Origin: Pirellula sp.
GTDB taxonomy: Bacteria; Planctomycetota; Planctomycetia; Pirellulales; Pirellulaceae
Assembly (NCBI GenBank): GCA_021299695.1
Contig: JAJTEK010000042.1
Coordinates: 1-42,354, forward strand
Direction of reading: 5' to 3'
Length of the DNA stretch: 42,354 bases
The notes under the pieces are model-generated. The model was given only the letters and a program-made list of their open reading frames with translations, searched no databases and was not told the DNA's origin. A program made the position numbers and the translations under genes. The first letter of the stretch is position 1; each line of letters opens with the position of its first letter. Below are positions 2,241 to 11,145 of this stretch, one piece after another.

Positions 2241-3743
2241 ATGATTACCCTCAACACACCGTCGATCCGAGTTCGATCCGCGACCCAATGCGACCTGCGC
2301 ACTGATGGTCAGTATGTCCTGTACTGGATGACAGCCTACCGGAGGCTCGCGTCGAACTTCGCCCTGGATCGTGCGGTCGAACTAGCGGTCACCCTGAACA
2401 AACCACTTTTGGTTTTCGAGGGGCTACGTATCGGGTATCGATGGGCGAGCGATCGGTTCCATCGGTTTGTGCTCGATGGAATGCTCGACAATCGGAAAGC
2501 CGCAGAAAAGTTGCCGTTAACGTACGTGAGCTATGTAGAGCCAACCTCGGGCGATGGTCGTGGGCTTGCCGAGACCTTGGCCAAATACGCTTGCGCGACG
2601 GTCACTGACGACTTTCCATGTTTCTTCCACCCGAGGCTCTATGGATCGATTGTCAAAAGCTGGCCCAGTGCGGTCGAATTGGTCGACAGCAACGGGATTC
2701 TCCCGATGCGCAATACCGACCGGACATTTACCGTAGCGCATTCCTACCGTCGTTACATGCAAAAGGAGATCTATCGCGAGACTCCGGTTTTTCCGCATGC
2801 CGATCCCTTTCGCCATGTCGTGCTTGAGAGGCTCAAGGCTCTCCCAGAGGAGGTTTCCAAGCGTTGGAAGTTTGTCGATAGCAAGGAGCTCGAACAATAC
2901 GATTTGAGCAAGTTGGATATCGACCATAGCGTTCGACCGACCGAAACGAGGGGTGGGCGCATCGAGGGACTCAGGCTACTGAAGGAATTCGCCCAGAGCA
3001 AGCTTGCCGATTACGACCAAGCCCGCAACGAACCGGATCAATATGGTTCGAGTAGTCTTTCGGCACATCTACACTTCGGGCACGTCAGTGCCCACGAGGT
3101 GTTTGACGCGATTGCATCGAGCCAAAAGGGATGGACTTTTGAGAAGATTTCAAAGCCCAACGGAAAGATGAATGGATTCTGGAACATGGGACAAAGCGCC
3201 GAGGCGTTCATGGACCAATTGATGACGTGGCGTGAAATCGGCTTGAATATGTGTTGGCGCGAATCGAATTATGACCGCTACGAGTCGCTTCCAGATTGGG
3301 CGCAGAAGACCCTCGAGGAGCATGCTGGCGACCGGCGTCCTTTCCTCTATTCGCCCGAAGAATTCGAGTCGGCTCGAACGCACGATGCGCTTTGGAATGC
3401 AGCTCAGCGACAACTCGTCGGTGAAGGGCGTATCCATAACTACCTGCGGATGCTCTGGGGCAAGAAAATCCTTCATTGGAGCCAATCTCCTCGGGAGGCT
3501 CTGAACATCATGATCCACTTGAACAACAAATACGCATTGGATGGTAGGGATCCGAATTCCTACAGCGGCATCTTTTGGGTTTTGGGGCGGTACGATCGAG
3601 CTTGGGGGCCTGAGCGCGAGGTCTTCGGCAAGATCCGATACATGACCAGCGAATCGACGCGATCGAAATTCTCCGTCAAAGGTTACCTTCAACGTTACGC
3701 GGAACTTACGGACACCAAAGGGCTCAAGGCCAAGACATCTTGA
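2241..3743 (+). CDS. Class II cyclobutane pyrimidine dimer photolyase
   Basis: 500 aa flavoprotein expected to repair UV-induced cyclobutane pyrimidine dimers using blue/near-UV light and FAD. The N-terminal half is the Rossmann-like antenna domain (YVLYWMTAYRRLASNFALDRA near residue 26; GYRWASDRFHRFVLDG near 65-80). The C-terminal half is the FAD-binding helical domain, with class II hallmarks YLRMLWGKKILHWSQSPREA, NNKYALDGRDPNSYSGIFW and GRYDRAWGPEREVFGKIRYM (about residues 400-470). These features separate it from class I photolyases and cryptochromes. The ATG at 2241 directly abuts the fumC stop. A second, different photolyase-type gene follows after 13 bp, so the two form a light-dependent repair pair. 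Confidence 0.93.
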   Translation: MITLNTPSIRVRSATQCDLRTDGQYVLYWMTAYRRLASNFALDRAVELAVTLNKPLLVFEGLRIGYRWASDRFHRFVLDGMLDNRKAAEKLPLTYVSYVEPTSGDGRGLAETLAKYACATVTDDFPCFFHPRLYGSIVKSWPSAVELVDSNGILPMRNTDRTFTVAHSYRRYMQKEIYRETPVFPHADPFRHVVLERLKALPEEVSKRWKFVDSKELEQYDLSKLDIDHSVRPTETRGGRIEGLRLLKEFAQSKLADYDQARNEPDQYGSSSLSAHLHFGHVSAHEVFDAIASSQKGWTFEKISKPNGKMNGFWNMGQSAEAFMDQLMTWREIGLNMCWRESNYDRYESLPDWAQKTLEEHAGDRRPFLYSPEEFESARTHDALWNAAQRQLVGEGRIHNYLRMLWGKKILHWSQSPREALNIMIHLNNKYALDGRDPNSYSGIFWVLGRYDRAWGPEREVFGKIRYMTSESTRSKFSVKGYLQRYAELTDTKGLKAKTS

Positions 3744-3756
3744 AAGCCAAATCATC

Positions 3757-5265
3757 GTGAAAGCCAAGCCGTCGACTCGCAAACCACTCGAAGCGGTGAT
3801 CGTCTATCCCCATCAGTTGTTTCCCGATCCGAAATGGATGGGTCCAATCGAGCATGTCTACATCGTTGAGGATCCGCTCTTGTTTCGGCAGTACCGATTC
3901 TGTCGGCAGAAGCTCTTGCTCCATAGGGCTTCGATGAAGCGCTATGCCGACGGGCTCAAGAAACTCGGTAAGGCAGTCGTGTACATCGATGCCATGGCGA
4001 TCGATCATTCGGCCGACATCGGCCAACGCCTCTCGGACGATGGAGTCGACAGACTCCGAGCGATCGACCCCGAAGACCACAACTTGCTCGTCAGGCTCAG
4101 GGCAGCTTGCAAGCTCCATCGGATCGATTTCGAGCTGGTTGCGGATCCTCATTTTCTGACCCCTTTGGATGCTATCGAGAGTTTCGTCGCCAACAAGAAA
4201 AAGCTTTTCTTTACGAATTTCTATATCGAGCAACGCAAACGCCTGAATGTCCTCTTGGATGGTGACCAAAAGCCCCTGGATGGGAAATGGAGTTTCGATA
4301 CCGAGAATCGCAAGCGTTTACCGACAGGCCACATGCCCCCAGAGTGTGATCTTGCCAGCGAGGACGCTTATGCCGTCGAGGCCAGAAAGTATGTCGATAA
4401 GAATTTCAAGGACGCTTGGGGGGACACCGAACCGCTGTGGTATCCGACCAGCGTCGAGGGCTCCGAGGCGCACTTAAAACGCTTTCTGTCGGAACGGTTG
4501 TCTAACTTTGGAGACTATGAAGATTCGATCAGTCGGGAGCACACTTTCTTGTACCATTCGGTCCTGACGCCCATGCTCAATGTCGGGCTCCTTTCGCCTA
4601 GCCGTCTGGTCGATGCAGTTCTGGAGTCTGGGCTAGAACCAAAGCGAGGTTCAAGTCCCGTGCCGATGAACTCGCTCGAAGGTTATGTCAGGCAAGTGAT
4701 CGGATGGCGCGAGTACATGCGATTGGTGTATCGCAAACTGGGAACCCAACAGCGGACTCGCAATTACTGGGGGCATGATCGCCAATTGCCCAGTTCTTTC
4801 TACGATGGGACGACCGGAATTGTGCCGGTCGACCAGACGATCCATCGGGTGCTGCGATACGGATATTGCCACCATATCGAGCGATTGATGATTTTAGGAA
4901 ATTTCATGCTGCTGTGCGAGTTCCATCCCGATGCGATCTACCGCTGGTTTATGGAGATGTTTGTCGACGCCTACGATTGGGTGATGGTGCCCAACGTCTA
5001 TGGAATGAGTCAGCATGCGGACGGCGGACTGATCACGACCAAACCCTACATCAGCGGATCGAGTTATGTGCTCAAGATGAGCGACTACAAGAAGGGGGAT
5101 TGGACGGGGGTTTGGGATGGATTGTATTGGCGTTTTGTTTCCAAGCATCGGGATTTTTTCGAACGCAATCCGCGAATGAAGGTCATGGTCAGCCAAGTCG
5201 ATCGGATGGGAGAGAAACTCCAAGTCCATGAGCGAACTGCAGATGCTTTTTTGAACTCCCTGTAA
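3757..5265 (+). CDS. FeS-BCP/PhrB-type photolyase-related protein lacking most Fe-S ligands
   Basis: 502 aa member of the deoxyribodipyrimidine photolyase-related (DPRP; bacterial (6-4) photolyase, FeS-BCP) family. The N-terminal antenna domain begins AVIVYPHQLFPDP, and the C-terminal FAD domain carries EGYVRQVIGWREYMR, NYWGHDRQLPSSFYDG, RYGYCHHIERLMILGN and MVPNVYGMSQHADGG. Family members repair (6-4) photoproducts and normally bind a [4Fe-4S] cluster through four Cys. Here only the first is present (Cys371, in YGYCHH). The region that normally holds the other three reads MSDYKKGDWTGVWDGLYW (residues 441-458) with no Cys, so the cluster is probably absent. The start is a GTG 13 bp after the preceding photolyase stop; no strong ribosome-binding site decides it. 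Probably cotranscribed with the class II photolyase. Confidence 0.9.
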   Translation: MKAKPSTRKPLEAVIVYPHQLFPDPKWMGPIEHVYIVEDPLLFRQYRFCRQKLLLHRASMKRYADGLKKLGKAVVYIDAMAIDHSADIGQRLSDDGVDRLRAIDPEDHNLLVRLRAACKLHRIDFELVADPHFLTPLDAIESFVANKKKLFFTNFYIEQRKRLNVLLDGDQKPLDGKWSFDTENRKRLPTGHMPPECDLASEDAYAVEARKYVDKNFKDAWGDTEPLWYPTSVEGSEAHLKRFLSERLSNFGDYEDSISREHTFLYHSVLTPMLNVGLLSPSRLVDAVLESGLEPKRGSSPVPMNSLEGYVRQVIGWREYMRLVYRKLGTQQRTRNYWGHDRQLPSSFYDGTTGIVPVDQTIHRVLRYGYCHHIERLMILGNFMLLCEFHPDAIYRWFMEMFVDAYDWVMVPNVYGMSQHADGGLITTKPYISGSSYVLKMSDYKKGDWTGVWDGLYWRFVSKHRDFFERNPRMKVMVSQVDRMGEKLQVHERTADAFLNSL

Positions 5266-5292
5266 TTCGAGGAACTCGGTGTCCGACTACGT

Positions 5293-5754
5293 TCAACTCA
5301 GGAGACCATGAATCGGGATCGCTTGGGCAAATCCCCGAACCCAGACCCCTTGTCCAGGTAGCAATTCGACGAGCCGGAAATCGGAAAGTCCGATCAAGGT
5401 CTCGATGGTCGGTCCGAATTGGTCTCGCATTTTGCCAAAGACGATTGGGGCCAGGGGGGCATCCCGGGGCACGACTTGGACCTCGCAAGTGTAGCTGACC
5501 CGTTTGCGTGCAAAGACGTTGACCGAATCTTTTTCGTCGGCGATGAACATCGCGTGGCATTGGCCCGTCGAGAGCAGGTTCGAGGTGTGCTTGGCCAACC
5601 CGCTGACCAGAACGTAGATTGCGCCGGCCTCATGGACAAATGGAGCATAGCTTGCGTTCGGTTCCCCGTTCCCTGAGACGGTCGATAGGATAACGGTTTT
5701 GCATCGGCTGATGAATTCACGCACCTCGGAGGCGACTTCGTTTGGCTGGTTCAT
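5293..5754 (-). CDS. HugZ/pyridoxamine 5'-phosphate oxidase-like FMN-binding split-barrel protein
   Basis: 153 aa, a small split-barrel protein resembling the HugZ/HutZ haem-utilisation branch of the pyridoxamine 5'-phosphate oxidase-like superfamily. Typical elements are CKTVILSTVSGNGEPNASYAPFV (residues 18-40, first barrel strands), IYVLVSGLAKHTSNL (46-60) and FARKRVSYTCEVQVVPRD in the middle. HugZ-like proteins bind haem or flavin and take part in haem breakdown; the exact cofactor here cannot be read from sequence. Its 3' end faces the photolyase gene across 27 bp. NAD synthase lies just upstream on the same strand, but no functional link is evident. Confidence 0.75.
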   Translation of the reverse strand: MNQPNEVASEVREFISRCKTVILSTVSGNGEPNASYAPFVHEAGAIYVLVSGLAKHTSNLLSTGQCHAMFIADEKDSVNVFARKRVSYTCEVQVVPRDAPLAPIVFGKMRDQFGPTIETLIGLSDFRLVELLPGQGVWVRGFAQAIPIHGLLS

Positions 5755-5792
5755 GATTTGGTTTTCAAGAAAGAGTGGAGCGTTTGCATCGG

Positions 5793-7811
5793 TTAGAGAT
5801 CGGCGACCCAGGCGGCGACATCGGCGTCGCTAGGCATTCGCCAATCGCCCCGTGGAGACAACGAAACACTTCCGACTTTAGGGCCATCTGGAACGCACGA
5901 ACGTTTGTATTGCGAAGCGAAAAATCGCTTGAGGAAAACTTTTAATGTGCTGCGTATTTGGTCGGGCGAATAATCGCGATCGAATACGGCATGCTCGGCC
6001 AAAAGCAGGATTTTTGAGGGGGTTGCCCCGCCACGGACCAGATGAAACAGGAAAAAATCGTGCAGTTCGTAGGGCCCAATGGTATCTTCGGTCGATTGCA
6101 GGACATTTTGATCGGAGCTCAAGGGGAGCAATTCCGGGGTGATCGGCGTTTGAACGATATCGATGAGAATCTTGCCGACAGCATCCTTGACGAGGTACTC
6201 CGCCACGTAGCGAATCAGAAATTTCACGAGGGTTTTGGGGATCGAACCGTTGACGTTGTACATCGACATGTGGTCGGCGTTGTAAGTGCTCCAGCCGAGA
6301 GCTTGTTCGGACATATCGCCAGTCCCAAGCACGAATCCTCGATTCATCAGGAGCATGGTCCGCATTCGAGCCTGTACGTTCTCAAACACTAGATCGTTGC
6401 GTTGGTTCTCGGGTAGTTTCTCCAAGCGACTTTGGAGGGTCTGCGAATCCAGGCCCTCGAGGCAAACGCCGAAGGGAGCATGTTGAAGACTCCGGAAGGT
6501 TTCGAAGCAATTGTCTCGAATATCGATCGTCTGCGAGGTGACCTCCAGGTGCTTCATCAGTTCGATCGCATTGGATTTCGACTGCTTGGTCGTTCCGAAT
6601 CCAGGCATGGTCATGCCGATAATTCGGGTCGTCGGCCAACCCATCTTCCTGCACATTTCGACAGCCACCAAAAGAGCCAAGGTGCTGTCGAGGCCCCCGG
6701 AGACTCCGATGCTCAGGGGGGTGTTGGCGGGTAAGAGCCCCACCCTTTTGGCGAGGGCTGCGCATTGGATTTCAAAGATCTCCGCGCATCGCTCGTGCAA
6801 CTGGTCCTTGGAAGCAGGAACGAACGGGTGCGGATCGATCCTTCGGCACAAAGAACCCGGAGTCAGACGCGTCTCGAAAGCAACGCGACGGAACTCGAGC
6901 GGGTTTCGATCGGCTGTCTGATGCATGGTTTGAAACGCTCGACGGTCTCGATCCAGTTTCCCCAGGTCGATATCGGCCGTTGCGAAACTCACCACTGGAC
7001 TCTCGGAGGGGAGCGAATGGATCTCCAACCCTGTGCCGATCCGCTTGGACTCGGCCAAGATCGCACCGTTCTCAGCGATCAGGCAGTGGGCGCCGAAGAC
7101 CAAATCGGTGGTGCTCTCGGAGGGACCCGCGCTTGCGTAGGCGTAAGCTGAGATGCACTTGCCCGATTGCATCGCAACGAGTTGCTTACGGTAATTGGCT
7201 TTCCCAATCGTCTCGTTGCTTGCCGAAAGGTTCAGCAGGATGTTCGCCCCAGCGATCGCCTGTTGGCTGCTCGGAGGGATAGGGACCCAAAGATCTTCGC
7301 AAATCTCAACCCCAACGGTGGCGTTTCCGCACTCGAAGAGCAAATCGGTCCCAAAGGGGACTTGGCCGATTCCCTCGATTCGCACGGTGTCGAAGTCCGC
7401 ATCAGCACCCGAATGAAACCAGCGTGCTTCGTAGAATTCGCTGTAGTTGGGCAAGTGGGTTTTTGGGACTAGGCCCAAGACCGATCCGCCCGAAAGCACT
7501 GCTGCAACGTTGTAGAGTCGGCCCCGGACCGCAAGCGGCAGCCCGACGACGACGAGCTGTTGGTCGACGCCCGCTGCCAATTCAGACCGTGCCAATTGAA
7601 CAAGAGCGCTGCGGCACGAATCGAGCAAACGATCTTGGAGGAATAGCTCACCGCATGTGTATCCGCTGATGCACAATTCGGGCAGCAGCACGATGTCCGA
7701 AGACTGAAAGGAAACCAAAGCTTGCTCGATCGCCTTTGCGTTGCCCTCTGGGTTGGCAACTGAAGTGGACGTCGAGAGGGTGCTGATCCGAAGAAAACCT
7801 GCAGGATGCAT
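5793..7811 (-). CDS. nadE: Glutamine-dependent NAD(+) synthase
   Basis: 672 aa two-domain enzyme that amidates nicotinic acid adenine dinucleotide to NAD+ using glutamine-derived ammonia and ATP. The N-terminal nitrilase-type glutaminase carries the Glu-Lys-Cys triad: Glu45 in LLPELCISGY, Lys117 in LVPKTHLPNYSEFYE and Cys171 in VGVEICEDLW. The C-terminal synthetase has the PP-loop SGGLDS at residues 371-376 and GTGDMSEQALGWSTYNADHM further on. The size matches the long glutaminase-fused form (about 680 aa in Mycobacterium). The frame is open to a TTG at 7847, but the ATG at 7811 has AAAGGA 8 bp upstream and begins the family homology, so it is preferred. The upstream gene ends at 7848, consistent with an operon. 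Confidence 0.95.
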   Translation of the reverse strand: MHPAGFLRISTLSTSTSVANPEGNAKAIEQALVSFQSSDIVLLPELCISGYTCGELFLQDRLLDSCRSALVQLARSELAAGVDQQLVVVGLPLAVRGRLYNVAAVLSGGSVLGLVPKTHLPNYSEFYEARWFHSGADADFDTVRIEGIGQVPFGTDLLFECGNATVGVEICEDLWVPIPPSSQQAIAGANILLNLSASNETIGKANYRKQLVAMQSGKCISAYAYASAGPSESTTDLVFGAHCLIAENGAILAESKRIGTGLEIHSLPSESPVVSFATADIDLGKLDRDRRAFQTMHQTADRNPLEFRRVAFETRLTPGSLCRRIDPHPFVPASKDQLHERCAEIFEIQCAALAKRVGLLPANTPLSIGVSGGLDSTLALLVAVEMCRKMGWPTTRIIGMTMPGFGTTKQSKSNAIELMKHLEVTSQTIDIRDNCFETFRSLQHAPFGVCLEGLDSQTLQSRLEKLPENQRNDLVFENVQARMRTMLLMNRGFVLGTGDMSEQALGWSTYNADHMSMYNVNGSIPKTLVKFLIRYVAEYLVKDAVGKILIDIVQTPITPELLPLSSDQNVLQSTEDTIGPYELHDFFLFHLVRGGATPSKILLLAEHAVFDRDYSPDQIRSTLKVFLKRFFASQYKRSCVPDGPKVGSVSLSPRGDWRMPSDADVAAWVADL

Positions 7812-7847
7812 TCGGTGGTCCTTTGGAGAAGTTCGGTCGATCCACAA

Positions 7848-8252
7848 CTAGCGAGTCGGACTGCGGTGAAAATGGACGTGCTTCCATTTGCCCATCTGCT
7901 TTTGCCATACACGGGTTTCCTCCATGGCCACCGTCGTCGGTTTTCCGTCGGCGATCTTCTGGGTCAGACGAACGTAGGCGATCACGGCCGTATCCCCCAT
8001 GACCCGGATATGGGGCGCGACGATAGTCGATTGAACGGGCGTCGATCCGCCTGGCAAATTGAAATAGTATTGGTGGAAATCCAGTCCGTCGACAAGATTC
8101 CCCATCGCCTCGGGTTCAAAGCACGTCAAGCTCGGGCAACAGATTTCCTTGTAGGTATCCCAATCTCCACGGGTGATCGAAACGAGTAGCTTTTGGGTTA
8201 GATCCAGGATTGTGTCCCGATCGGCAGAGGTGGCCATCGCAGTGTTTCCCAT
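7848..8252 (-). CDS. CaMKII-association-domain / SnoaL-like (NTF2-fold) protein
   Basis: 134 aa from the ATG at 8252 (alternative ATG at 8237; the frame stays open to 8327). The whole protein fits the calcium/calmodulin-dependent kinase II association-domain type of NTF2 fold: ILDLTQKLLVSITRGDWDTY, CPSLTCFEPEAMGNLVDGLDFH, then a strand-rich half with IRVMGDTAVIAYVRLTQ and ETRVWQKQMGKWKHVHFHRS. In bacteria such domains occur as stand-alone proteins of unknown substrate. The gene ends about 36 bp before the nadE start on the same strand. Upstream it is divergent from the helicase gene. The conserved WKHVHFHRS end is intact, so it looks functional. Confidence 0.75.
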   Translation of the reverse strand: MGNTAMATSADRDTILDLTQKLLVSITRGDWDTYKEICCPSLTCFEPEAMGNLVDGLDFHQYYFNLPGGSTPVQSTIVAPHIRVMGDTAVIAYVRLTQKIADGKPTTVAMEETRVWQKQMGKWKHVHFHRSPTR

Positions 8253-8327
8253 CGTCGACAAATAAATGCTAGCGGTCGTTTCAAGGCGACCGTTCTGCCT
8301 CGAAATCACGCTCCTTGTGACGTCCAC

Positions 8328-8333
8328 TATAAT
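8328..8333 (+). promoter_or_regulatory. Perfect TATAAT -10 candidate before the XPB-type helicase
   Basis: TATAAT occurs 27 bp upstream of the GTG start of the helicase gene, in the divergent intergenic region. No good -35 sits at 16-18 bp spacing, so this is only a candidate for the repair operon promoter. Confidence 0.35.
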
Positions 8334-8360
8334 AACTCAGAAGAAACGCTTACCGTAGCC

Positions 8361-9932
8361 GTGAGCGTGTCGATAAGCAACAATTCCCGGACGAAATACC
8401 CCCTAGATTTTGATCCCAGGGTACAGTGGATCGATACAGAAGTTCGATCCAAAAGTTTTGACACAAGAGTTCGCCAGAGGAGTTCGGAGCAGTTGACCGA
8501 CGCATCGAGTTCGAACCGTTTGGTTTTTGATTCGGGAACCTTGCTGCTCGACCGCGGCACCATGGACCAGCTTGAGGCTTGGTTTGGGCCCAAGGTCTGG
8601 ATGTGGGACCACCGCGTGCTCAAGTGGCGGTGCGATGCGATTCATTACGGACAGATCCGCCAAGGACTTGCGGCCTTCGATACAGGGATTCTCGATGAAG
8701 TCCCGAAAGTCGATTCAGGGGCCCCCGGCGGATTGCTGACCTTTGCATCCGAACCGAAACTGCCCCCTTTACGCCTCGAGCAGCAGCAAGCCATCGAGGC
8801 ATGGAGCCAATCCAAGCGAGGCATCATCGTCATGCCTACCGGGACGGGTAAGACCGAAGTGGCCCTTGCGATCATCGCGCAGAGTGGAATTCCTACCTTG
8901 GTCGTCGCTCCGGTCAGGGACCTGATGTACCAATGGCATCGCCGCATCCTACGAGGGCTCGGGATCGATGCCGGGATACTCGGGGATCAACGCAACACCA
9001 TCCGGCCACTGACGGTCACGACCTACGCCAGTGCTTGTATCCATGCGACGGAGCTCGGATCGCAATTCGGTCTGCTCGTCTTTGACGAGTGCCACCATTT
9101 GACCGGACCGATTCGGGCTGATGCTGCACGTTGCTCGATTGCCCCGCAACGCTTGGGACTGACCGCGACGCTCAACGCCGATGCCAGGGAACTCGAGGTG
9201 CTCATCGGGCCGGTCTGCTACGAACTGGGGTTGCAGCAGGTCAAAGGAAGTACGCTGGCCGACTACGATGTCGTTCGCATTCCAGTCGCACTCGGACCGA
9301 GCGAGCGCGTCCGGTACAAAGAGATCTCAGGTCAGATTGCAAGTTACGTCCACGAACGCCGGGAGCAAGACCCCCTGTTTGAATGGAAGGACCTGTGCAA
9401 TGAAGCGGCCAAAGGGAGCCAAGCTTCCCGCATCATGCGATTGTATCGAGAGAAGGAGTCCATCGAGGATCGGGCCGACGAAAAGCTCGAGGTGCTCGAA
9501 GATCTGTTTCGGCTTCATCTGGGCGAGCCGATGATCATCTTCACCGGTACGAACGCGATGGCTCGCAAGATATCGCTGCGATTTCTTATCCCCTGTTTGC
9601 TTAGTCATTGCGGAAAAGCCGAGAGACTCGACTATCTCGAAGGGCTTCGCGACGGAGTTTATCCAGCCTTGGTCGCCAACCAAGTGCTCGATGAAGGGGT
9701 CGACCTGCCCGAAGTCAAAATCGCCGTAGTCCTCGGAGGCAAAAGCTCGACCAGGCAATCCAAGCAGCGGCTCGGTCGGATCCTGCGAAAACGCGGAAAT
9801 GCTCGCGCAGTTCTCTACGAAGTCGTCACGGCCGAAACCAAAGAAGTCCAAAAGTCCCGTAACAGAAGGCGCAACGATGCTTACCAAGGAACTAGCCATC
9901 GCAAGCTACGTCGACGGCCAGATCCTTCCTGA
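8361..9932 (+). CDS. XPB-type superfamily 2 DNA helicase
   Basis: 523 aa SF2 helicase resembling archaeal/bacterial XPB, a 3'-5' DNA unwinding enzyme of nucleotide excision repair. Motifs in order: Q-like LRLEQQQAIEAW (residues 137-148), Walker A MPTGTGKT (158-165), motif Ia VVAPVRDL, Walker B with DECH (242-245, in VFDECHHLTGP), motif III LTATLN (267-272), motif V VANQVLDEGVDLPEV and motif VI QSKQRLGRILRKRG (466-479). About 135 residues precede the helicase core, where XPB proteins carry a damage-recognition-like domain. The start is a GTG with no clear ribosome-binding site; the next ATG would cut into the N-terminal domain. Its 3' end overlaps the next gene, a DUF790/Bax1 nuclease, by 56 bp, matching the XPB-Bax1 gene pairing known from archaea. 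Confidence 0.9.
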   Translation: MSVSISNNSRTKYPLDFDPRVQWIDTEVRSKSFDTRVRQRSSEQLTDASSSNRLVFDSGTLLLDRGTMDQLEAWFGPKVWMWDHRVLKWRCDAIHYGQIRQGLAAFDTGILDEVPKVDSGAPGGLLTFASEPKLPPLRLEQQQAIEAWSQSKRGIIVMPTGTGKTEVALAIIAQSGIPTLVVAPVRDLMYQWHRRILRGLGIDAGILGDQRNTIRPLTVTTYASACIHATELGSQFGLLVFDECHHLTGPIRADAARCSIAPQRLGLTATLNADARELEVLIGPVCYELGLQQVKGSTLADYDVVRIPVALGPSERVRYKEISGQIASYVHERREQDPLFEWKDLCNEAAKGSQASRIMRLYREKESIEDRADEKLEVLEDLFRLHLGEPMIIFTGTNAMARKISLRFLIPCLLSHCGKAERLDYLEGLRDGVYPALVANQVLDEGVDLPEVKIAVVLGGKSSTRQSKQRLGRILRKRGNARAVLYEVVTAETKEVQKSRNRRRNDAYQGTSHRKLRRRPDPS

Positions 9933-11145
9933 TCGGTTAAACCGCAACGAGCATGCCCAATACATCGACTTGGCCAAGCAGATGTGCGAGGCCTACCGCC
10001 AAGGAATAGGCACTACGAGAAAAAACCTCCATGGCCAAATCCAAAGGATCCTCGAAGCCGATGCGGCTTGCCCGATCCGTAGGGTCGGCGCGTTTTGCAA
10101 ACTGCTCGATGATGCCTCAATTTTCGATGCCGGAAAACCCAAGCAGACTGCAGAACTCCGCAAGCGAGTGTTTCGCCAAGCCGCAGCGCTTCATCCGCTA
10201 GTGAACAATCTCGAGTCGATCCTCGACCACTCCCAGACCGAAGTCAAAGAGCAGATCGCCGCTCTGGAAAAAACGACCTGGCCGCAACTCGAGCAACAGC
10301 TCTTCTCGGACATCATCGACCACCATCGCTTGATCGAATTCCCGTATCCCTCCGACACCAACGAACTCCTGGCCCGCTACAACGTCGCACAGACCCAAGC
10401 CGCCTTGCTAGGCGCAAGGCAGATGATCATCGATGCGACGGGAGATTGGAAAGCGATCCTTCGCTACGCCAAACTCGCAAACTTAATGCACCGCATCGAG
10501 TCGATTTCCAGCGGGTATCGAATCACCCTCGATGGACCCGCCTCGGTCCTCCGGGGAACCCACCGCTACGGAGTCCAAATGGCAAAACTCCTCCCAGGAC
10601 TGCTCTCGTGCACCGGTTGGTCCCTGGTCGCTACGATCGTCCCAAAAGGGTTCGCCAAATTCATCGATACCCCTTGGGGACGCAAACAGCGTTGGACACT
10701 CAAGCTCGATGACCGCTGCGGACTCCAATCCTCAGTAGCGTCTCCCGAACTTGCCGATTCGCAGATCGAGACAAACCTGATCGAAAACTGGGAACTCATG
10801 CGAGTCCTCCATGCTCGTGAGTCCGGGCTCGAAAGCTGGCAATTGCTACGCGAAGGGGATATCCTGGTCCGAGGCCAGCGGGTCTTTTTCCCCGACTTTA
10901 CCGTCGTTAGCCCATCCGGCACCCGCATATTGCTGGAAATCGTCGGGTTTTGGACCCCCGAGTACATCCGCCACAAATCCGAGGTCCTCCATACCTTTGC
11001 CGACACACCCCTGCTCCTGGCGATCCCCCAAACGTTAAAGGCGCAATGGAAGAAACACGCTTTTTCTAAAAACCACCTGGTCATCTACTATCGCCAAGAG
11101 ATTTCCCCCGGCGAAATCATTCAGGCAATCGAAGAAAACAGCTGA
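9877..11145 (+). CDS. Bax1-like nuclease (DUF790)
   Basis: 422 aa protein of the DUF790 family, represented by archaeal Bax1, a structure-specific endonuclease that binds XPB and stimulates it. The C-terminal nuclease region shows a PD-(D/E)xK-like pattern: FFPDF (residues 337-341) and LLEIVGFWTPEY (352-363), the most conserved part of the family. The N-terminus MLTKELAIASYVDGQILPDRL is also family-like. The frame is open upstream to 9799, but the ATG at 9877 has AGAAGG 7 bp upstream and starts at the expected position. It overlaps the helicase by 56 bp in another frame, suggesting translational coupling. Inferred role: incision partner of the helicase in bulky-lesion or bubble repair, complementary to the two photolyases nearby. 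Confidence 0.87.
   Translation: MLTKELAIASYVDGQILPDRLNRNEHAQYIDLAKQMCEAYRQGIGTTRKNLHGQIQRILEADAACPIRRVGAFCKLLDDASIFDAGKPKQTAELRKRVFRQAAALHPLVNNLESILDHSQTEVKEQIAALEKTTWPQLEQQLFSDIIDHHRLIEFPYPSDTNELLARYNVAQTQAALLGARQMIIDATGDWKAILRYAKLANLMHRIESISSGYRITLDGPASVLRGTHRYGVQMAKLLPGLLSCTGWSLVATIVPKGFAKFIDTPWGRKQRWTLKLDDRCGLQSSVASPELADSQIETNLIENWELMRVLHARESGLESWQLLREGDILVRGQRVFFPDFTVVSPSGTRILLEIVGFWTPEYIRHKSEVLHTFADTPLLLAIPQTLKAQWKKHAFSKNHLVIYYRQEISPGEIIQAIEENS

Follow-up and report, generated by a model that had tools for sequence, protein, structure and literature searches.

The 42,354-nucleotide contig JAJTEK010000042.1 of Pirellula sp. (GCA_021299695.1), called the window here, carries between positions 2,241 and 11,145 two photolyase genes, three minus-strand genes, and a gene for an archaeal-type XPB helicase that overlaps a gene for the nuclease Bax1 (DUF790). 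The source genome (G000) comprises 5.5 Mb in 229 contigs and is 95% complete. All open reading frames (ORFs) given for this region by the initial annotation are present at their coordinates, and the ORFs and profile matches confirm its gene calls (Table 1).

The closest solved relative of the window XPB is the archaeal XPBII 6p4f. The damage recognition domain (DRD) scores 32.4 bits with PF18458 against a cut-off of 26, and helicase motifs I, II and VI are intact (PTGTGKT, DECHH and QRLGRIL). In sequence alignment alone, the StXPB comparison passes through the thumb region (ThM) without a large deletion. Translation may start at GTG 8361 or 8367 or at TTG 8493 or 8520. For Bax1, the longest ORF opens at 9799 while the family homology opens at ATG 9877, inside the end of XPB, and the gene overlap is therefore ~56 bp (9877-9932). 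Besides the Bax1 chains, the protein also matches 8gy8 (E 2e-27), whose deposited name is that of a putative translation initiation factor. Most of the catalytic residues are retained. With the roles of the nuclease residues taken from the accessible part of PMC7293015, D305 and E318 (AfBax1 numbering) align with the D of PDF and the E of EIVGFWT in all three printed archaeal alignments. A glutamate is aligned at the counterpart of AfBax1 E275 in the StBax1 alignment and is not aligned there in the AfBax1 alignment.

The pairing of the two genes was followed through a phylum sample of 392 planctomycete genomes, with XPB counted at E 1e-25. DUF790 was found in 54 genomes and XPB in 55; both occur in 53, Bax1 alone in one (G123, 59% complete), XPB alone in two and neither in 336 (Fisher p 5e-62). 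XPB lies directly upstream of Bax1 on the same strand in 44 of the 53, with gaps of -53 to 574 bp in match coordinates. In the other nine the genes do not share both contig and strand, G279 and G312 having them at contig edges; they are ~850 kb apart in the one-contig genome G107. An order sample gave Bax1 in 24 of 296 genomes, 22 of them additional to the phylum sample, and XPB was adjacent (within ~300 bp) in 19 of these 22, 5 kb off in G627 and on another contig in two. Eleven of the 12 genomes without XPB at the Bax1 locus carry it elsewhere, including G353 (99% complete) and G107, and the exception is G123. Neither gene was found in the genus member G608. The pairing of XPB with Bax1 is clearly beyond chance and constitutes a genuine unit, and the proposal that a planctomycete carries a conserved pair of archaeal type, with two photolyases of distinct classes nearby, stands.

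The divergence of the two proteins is correlated as well. Over 62 loci, XPB and Bax1 sequence distances gave a Pearson coefficient of 0.90 and a Spearman coefficient of 0.83. The set was restricted to XPB frames longer than 380 aa and Bax1 frames longer than 330 aa and was cleared of listed duplicates; the near-identical L155 and L204 stayed in it. Neighbouring genes were clustered over 83 loci (the window, L002-L005, L035-L090 and L143-L164, with some records present twice). By the position of their representatives, cluster 0 is Bax1 (61 loci) and cluster 1 is XPB (47 loci), while cluster 2 (21 loci) has as its representative an antisense frame lying over XPB-Bax1, which results from longest-ORF calling in GC-rich DNA. 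No third partner emerged, as no further cluster exceeded nine of the 83 loci and the largest of them resembles an ABC ATPase. One decayed copy of XPB-Bax1, with stops in Bax1, was seen at L164 (G524).

Table 1. Features of the 2241..11145 region, with positions in the window.
Feature	Position	Strand	Support	Remark
Class II-like cyclobutane pyrimidine dimer (CPD) photolyase	2241..3743	+	TIGR00591 E 4e-106 (below cut-off); PDB 8oet E 1.5e-69	neighbouring cassette
PhrB/DPRP-type photolyase	3757..5265	+	PF04244 E 8e-49; PDB 9hnk E 8e-78	neighbouring cassette; 0/4 iron-sulfur (Fe-S) cysteines
HutZ/HugZ-like PNPOx-fold protein	5293..5754	-	PF01243 E 1e-15; TIGR04110 below own cut-off	intervening gene
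NAD+ synthase with amidase domain	5793..7847	-	NF002730 794.8 bits vs cut-off 473	intervening gene
CaMKII-association/SnoaL-like protein	7848..8327	-	PF08332 E 5e-39	intervening gene
XPB-type (archaeal XPBII-like) superfamily 2 (SF2) helicase	8361..9932	+	PF18458 DRD and PF16203 C-terminal domain over cut-off; 6p4f E 8e-76	start uncertain
XPB DRD	8520..8702	+	PF18458	residues 54-114
Bax1/DUF790 PD-(D/E)XK nuclease	9877..11145	+	PF05626 E 5e-87; PDB Bax1 chains E 2e-26 to 6e-25	match from ATG at 9877
Bax1 nuclease-domain acidic residues	10768..10938	+		E 10768-10770 (aligned with StBax1 alone); D of PDF 10894-10896; E 10936-10938

Bax1 is followed by a DoxX-like gene and by a gene named gfo by eye. 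Farther downstream, the window encodes a DNA polymerase III delta'-like protein, CTP synthase and other ordinary genes.

On the other side of the pair, the PhrB-like gene starts 13 bases past the stop of the class II-like gene. The class II-like protein reaches 355.9 bits with TIGR00591 against a model cut-off of 550, which is passed by just six of the 202 planctomycete genomes with matches, and no Pfam family matches it at 1e-3. In the PDB it matches 8oet and, at E 1.1e-68, 2xry, both of which we take to be class II photolyases. The tandem also recurs apart from the pair: class II-like and DPRP genes were adjacent, by eye, in at least five of 73 DPRP genomes (G000, G118, G134, G242 and G387). 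A second class II-like photolyase of 906 aa, with a C-terminal part that by eye resembles a flavin adenine dinucleotide (FAD)-dependent oxidoreductase, is encoded on contig C48 of the source genome (L235, 1522-4242). Other planctomycetes, too, have class II-matching frames, of 836-979 aa.

The association of the photolyases with the pair was scanned by tblastn with both window photolyases in 83 Bax1-carrying genomes (54 of the phylum sample, 22 of the order and seven of the genus). Photolyases adjoin XPB-Bax1 in three of the 83, namely G000, G685 and G612, all of one genus; class I photolyases and UvdE were not searched for. This count is a lower bound because just 40 of the 78 phylum and order loci with a tblastn match extend for more than 5 kb to either side. 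The proteins of the three genomes are 87-98% identical across the block from photolyases to pair. Among the matches listed, 20 Bax1 genomes have a class II place, and G000 alone has it, by eye, on the Bax1 contig.

The genus was represented by 27 genomes, of which 20 were fetched around gfo and three were already in the set, with G681, G682, G694 and G695 outside the comparison. XPB-Bax1 lies directly upstream of doxX-gfo in 11 of them. Seven of these 11 are readable on the photolyase side, and photolyases are present in three and absent in four (G684, G517, G689 and G683). G684 and G517 keep both the pair and hugZ-nadE-camk, with no photolyase within 3.2 kb and ~19 kb upstream of hugZ, respectively, and G689 and G683 are photolyase-free over 7-8 kb upstream of nadE. 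The distant members G697, G691, G698 and G687 have nadE-camk-doxX-gfo without the pair and with another reading frame in the gap. In G657 and G627 the pair is missing from the doxX-gfo site and lies elsewhere. As these copies group with the genus in both the XPB and the Bax1 trees, the pattern fits inheritance with relocation or loss, in either direction. The neighbourhood that had been expected to be conserved in relatives is therefore conserved in its XPB-Bax1 part and not in its photolyase part: the arrangement with photolyases is genuine in three genomes of a single genus and went undetected in the remaining 80 of the scan. The photolyases appear to form a cassette of their own, outside the XPB-Bax1 unit. 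In three genus members (L204, L205 and L206) a gene that by eye is GlmS-like stands directly upstream of XPB, a position in which it does not occur in the window. The 3' end of glmS is the target of Tn7 in other bacteria.

The PhrB-like protein of the window was compared with that of two close relatives and with DPRP loci that scored best or were otherwise chosen, a subset of the 73 DPRP genomes; six duplicates and the fragment L176 were left out of the motif reading. The four Fe-S cysteine columns hold P, K, a gap and G in the window protein. None of the four cysteines is present in it and 11 relatives, nine of them planctomycete and two Persicobacter (Bacteroidota) plasmid sequences, while all four are present in 28 of the 28 other aligned sequences. 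The 12 cysteine-less sequences form one group (supports 0.95 and 1.0) and have proline at the first cysteine position without exception. Persicobacter sequences are also the top plasmid relatives of the window protein (45-48%). Of the other features of prokaryotic (6-4) photolyases with an Fe-S cluster (FeS-BCP), the active-site HH and R and the inner tryptophan of the electron path are kept (HHIERLM and RWFMEMF), and tyrosine occupies the outer Trp341 position. Its treatment as a new kind of PhrB was dropped since PromaPL and a cysteine-less 'subgroup M' of PhrB homologues are already described in the accessible parts of PMC9426592 and PMC9178010; homologues without the Fe-S cysteines are also mentioned in PMC4619345. 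By its sequence, the window protein resembles this known minor cysteine-less subgroup.

Outside the planctomycetes, 40 plasmid records contain Bax1 relatives, and 11 of these records are from Deinococcus. An XPB match (E 1.5e-69 or better) stands directly before Bax1 in all 11 inspected Deinococcus regions, as does an XPB match in both inspected haloarchaeal plasmid regions. In 2005 DUF790 was described as almost exclusively archaeal and cyanobacterial (PMC1189080, accessible part). The initial annotation had regarded XPB-Bax1 in a bacterium as noteworthy in itself; given the Deinococcus plasmids and the family's earlier description in cyanobacteria, this is not supported. Bacterial XPB-Bax1 is already known, and the window pair is a well-supported case of the known kind. 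On plasmid P1 of D. gobiensis (L219, 4501-8260), a spore photoproduct lyase gene lies 54 bp upstream of XPB, which Bax1 overlaps, all on one strand, and this run is a possible UV operon. A genome paper on D. gobiensis discusses this lyase, and its main text, in the part accessible, contains neither the word helicase nor XPB (PMC3314630).

Taken together, XPB and Bax1 probably represent an archaeal-type helicase-nuclease complex that serves as an extra repair tool beside UvrABC, with the photolyases as a separate cassette. By homology, XPB would hold distorted or forked DNA at its double-/single-strand junction and widen the bubble, and Bax1, held through its own N-terminal domain, would incise a strand at the junction. 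The pair would work beside UvrABC on bulky lesions or stalled forks, and the class II-like and PhrB-like photoreactivation cassette would have landed, or been retained, at a distance of three genes in one species group. Complex formation, substrate, lesion type, dispensability, co-transcription and regulation are inferred.

Several observations weigh against this interpretation. The R-x-D of the RED motif, described as absolutely conserved in XPB in the accessible part of PMC3353954, is missing after motif III in all 10 genus XPBs compared, with loss of the arginine, and is found in 50 of 66 other planctomycete XPBs (distinct frames >380 aa; the G680 XPB, L199, recovered as a 76-aa frame, was left out of the 10). 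The XPB of G657 retains this arginine. Because this arginine is lost in the genus, the junction contacts may differ from those of the archaeal enzyme. In Bax1, isoleucine stands at the window position aligned with AfBax1 E135, the second N-terminal acidic residue. Shared species history would produce part of the correlation between XPB and Bax1 distances. For loci with short flanks, many of them cut by contig ends, a lack of photolyases says less, and in their three carrier genomes the photolyases stay beside the pair down to 87% protein identity.

The initial annotation had seen in the locus a UV-damage island; in such an island, photolyases and XPB-Bax1 would share action and regulation, with photoreversal in the light and XPB-Bax1 excision in the dark. 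It had also taken XPB-Bax1 excision for a route independent of UvrABC. The co-location of the four genes in three closely similar blocks and the parallel with the lyase of D. gobiensis P1, on the same strand as XPB, speak for joint action. Nevertheless, the linkage is confined to three of the 83 genomes and to three of the seven readable genus members, no photolyase accompanies the retained pair and hugZ-nadE-camk of G684 and G517 over the 3.2 kb and ~19 kb given above, and a single transcript is excluded because three minus-strand genes intervene. Moreover, the class II place falls on the Bax1 contig in one of the 20 listed genomes, and the lyase linkage occurs in one of 11 Deinococcus plasmids, that lyase being unmatched in the planctomycete loci (tblastn 1e-5). 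A UV-damage island is unlikely and, as a conserved unit, is not supported, and a joint UV response of photolyases and pair is not favoured by the comparative evidence. That XPB-Bax1 substitutes for UvrABC as the main excision pathway in these bacteria is highly improbable. Its support comes from G026 (family f30, 85% complete), in which XPB and Bax1, on different contigs, occur and UvrA, UvrB and UvrC were all undetected, the only such case among 22 Bax1 genomes and the sole f30 genome in this comparison; against it, UvrA exceeds the cut-off in 21 of the 22 and UvrB and UvrC in 20 each. In the window genome UvrA and UvrC are present and UvrB is found in two pieces (a frame break near base 10333 of contig C211, L097). 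Among four near relatives, UvrB is whole in G392, G394 and G395 and was not detected in G393. Since it is whole in these three, the break is possibly an assembly error, and its reading as a sign of replacement was rejected. With UvrA, UvrB and UvrC all found, replacement in the window genome was likewise rejected, and the pair adds to UvrABC instead of replacing it.

It is also unlikely that XPB-Bax1 is a mobile accessory module serving mainly defence or plasmid maintenance and not lesion repair. The patchy distribution in the phylum and order samples would agree with mobility, as would the differing sites within one genus, the related genomes without the pair at the window site, and the Deinococcus and haloarchaeal plasmid copies, one of which lies ~5 kb from a BREX-annotated gene. 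The helicase also matches the PADLOC PbeA models (E 2e-45), but far less strongly than XPBII (E 8e-76), for which reason a defence system was rejected. Furthermore, inspection of the clusters by eye revealed no mobile or defence gene that repeatedly accompanies the planctomycete copies, none of 50,697 phage records matches the window Bax1 at 1e-3, and the genus copies group in both trees, which is consistent with inheritance and relocation or loss. A broader proposal sees the bacterial pair as a second, portable excision machine. It would have been recruited time and again next to enzymes of direct UV-damage reversal, namely class II-like and PhrB-like photolyases in the window and spore photoproduct lyase in D. 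gobiensis, and could take over where UvrABC is missing (as in G026 of f30). This proposal likewise has little probability in our estimation.

The analysis shows XPB-Bax1 to be a co-inherited unit in scattered planctomycetes, mostly together with UvrABC. Because most carriers also have UvrABC, such planctomycetes lend themselves to studying the role of the complex where basic excision repair already exists. It also parts this solid result from an attractive, unsupported island story.

Among known systems, the archaeal XPB-Bax1 of Sulfurisphaera tokodaii and Archaeoglobus fulgidus (6p4f, 6p4o and 6p66) shares with the window the gene pair, a DRD-bearing XPB with two RecA-like domains and a Bax1 with the conserved C-terminal nuclease motif, whereas the window pair is bacterial, lacks the RED arginine in its genus, has AfBax1 E135 replaced and occurs alongside UvrABC. 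The Deinococcus XPB-DUF790 pairs (for example on D. gobiensis P1 and D. radiophilus pRadio3) similarly place XPB before Bax1 in a bacterium, but their Bax1 is 28-30% identical to that of the window, they are plasmid-borne, and the 6-7 kb flanks read contain no annotated photolyase. The Mycobacterium-type XPB, also a bacterial XPB helicase, carries a eukaryote-like N-terminal domain instead of the DRD according to the accessible part of PMC3353954, while the window XPB has the DRD and matches XPBII best. For the photolyases, the two-photolyase operon of Synechococcus PCC 7335 also has two different photolyases in tandem but pairs other types than the window, as far as the accessible part of PMC9649867 goes. 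PromaPL and 'subgroup M', as portrayed in PMC9426592 and PMC9178010, are like the window protein in being PhrB-like without the Fe-S cysteines, a likeness drawn from the cysteine loss and not from a tree.

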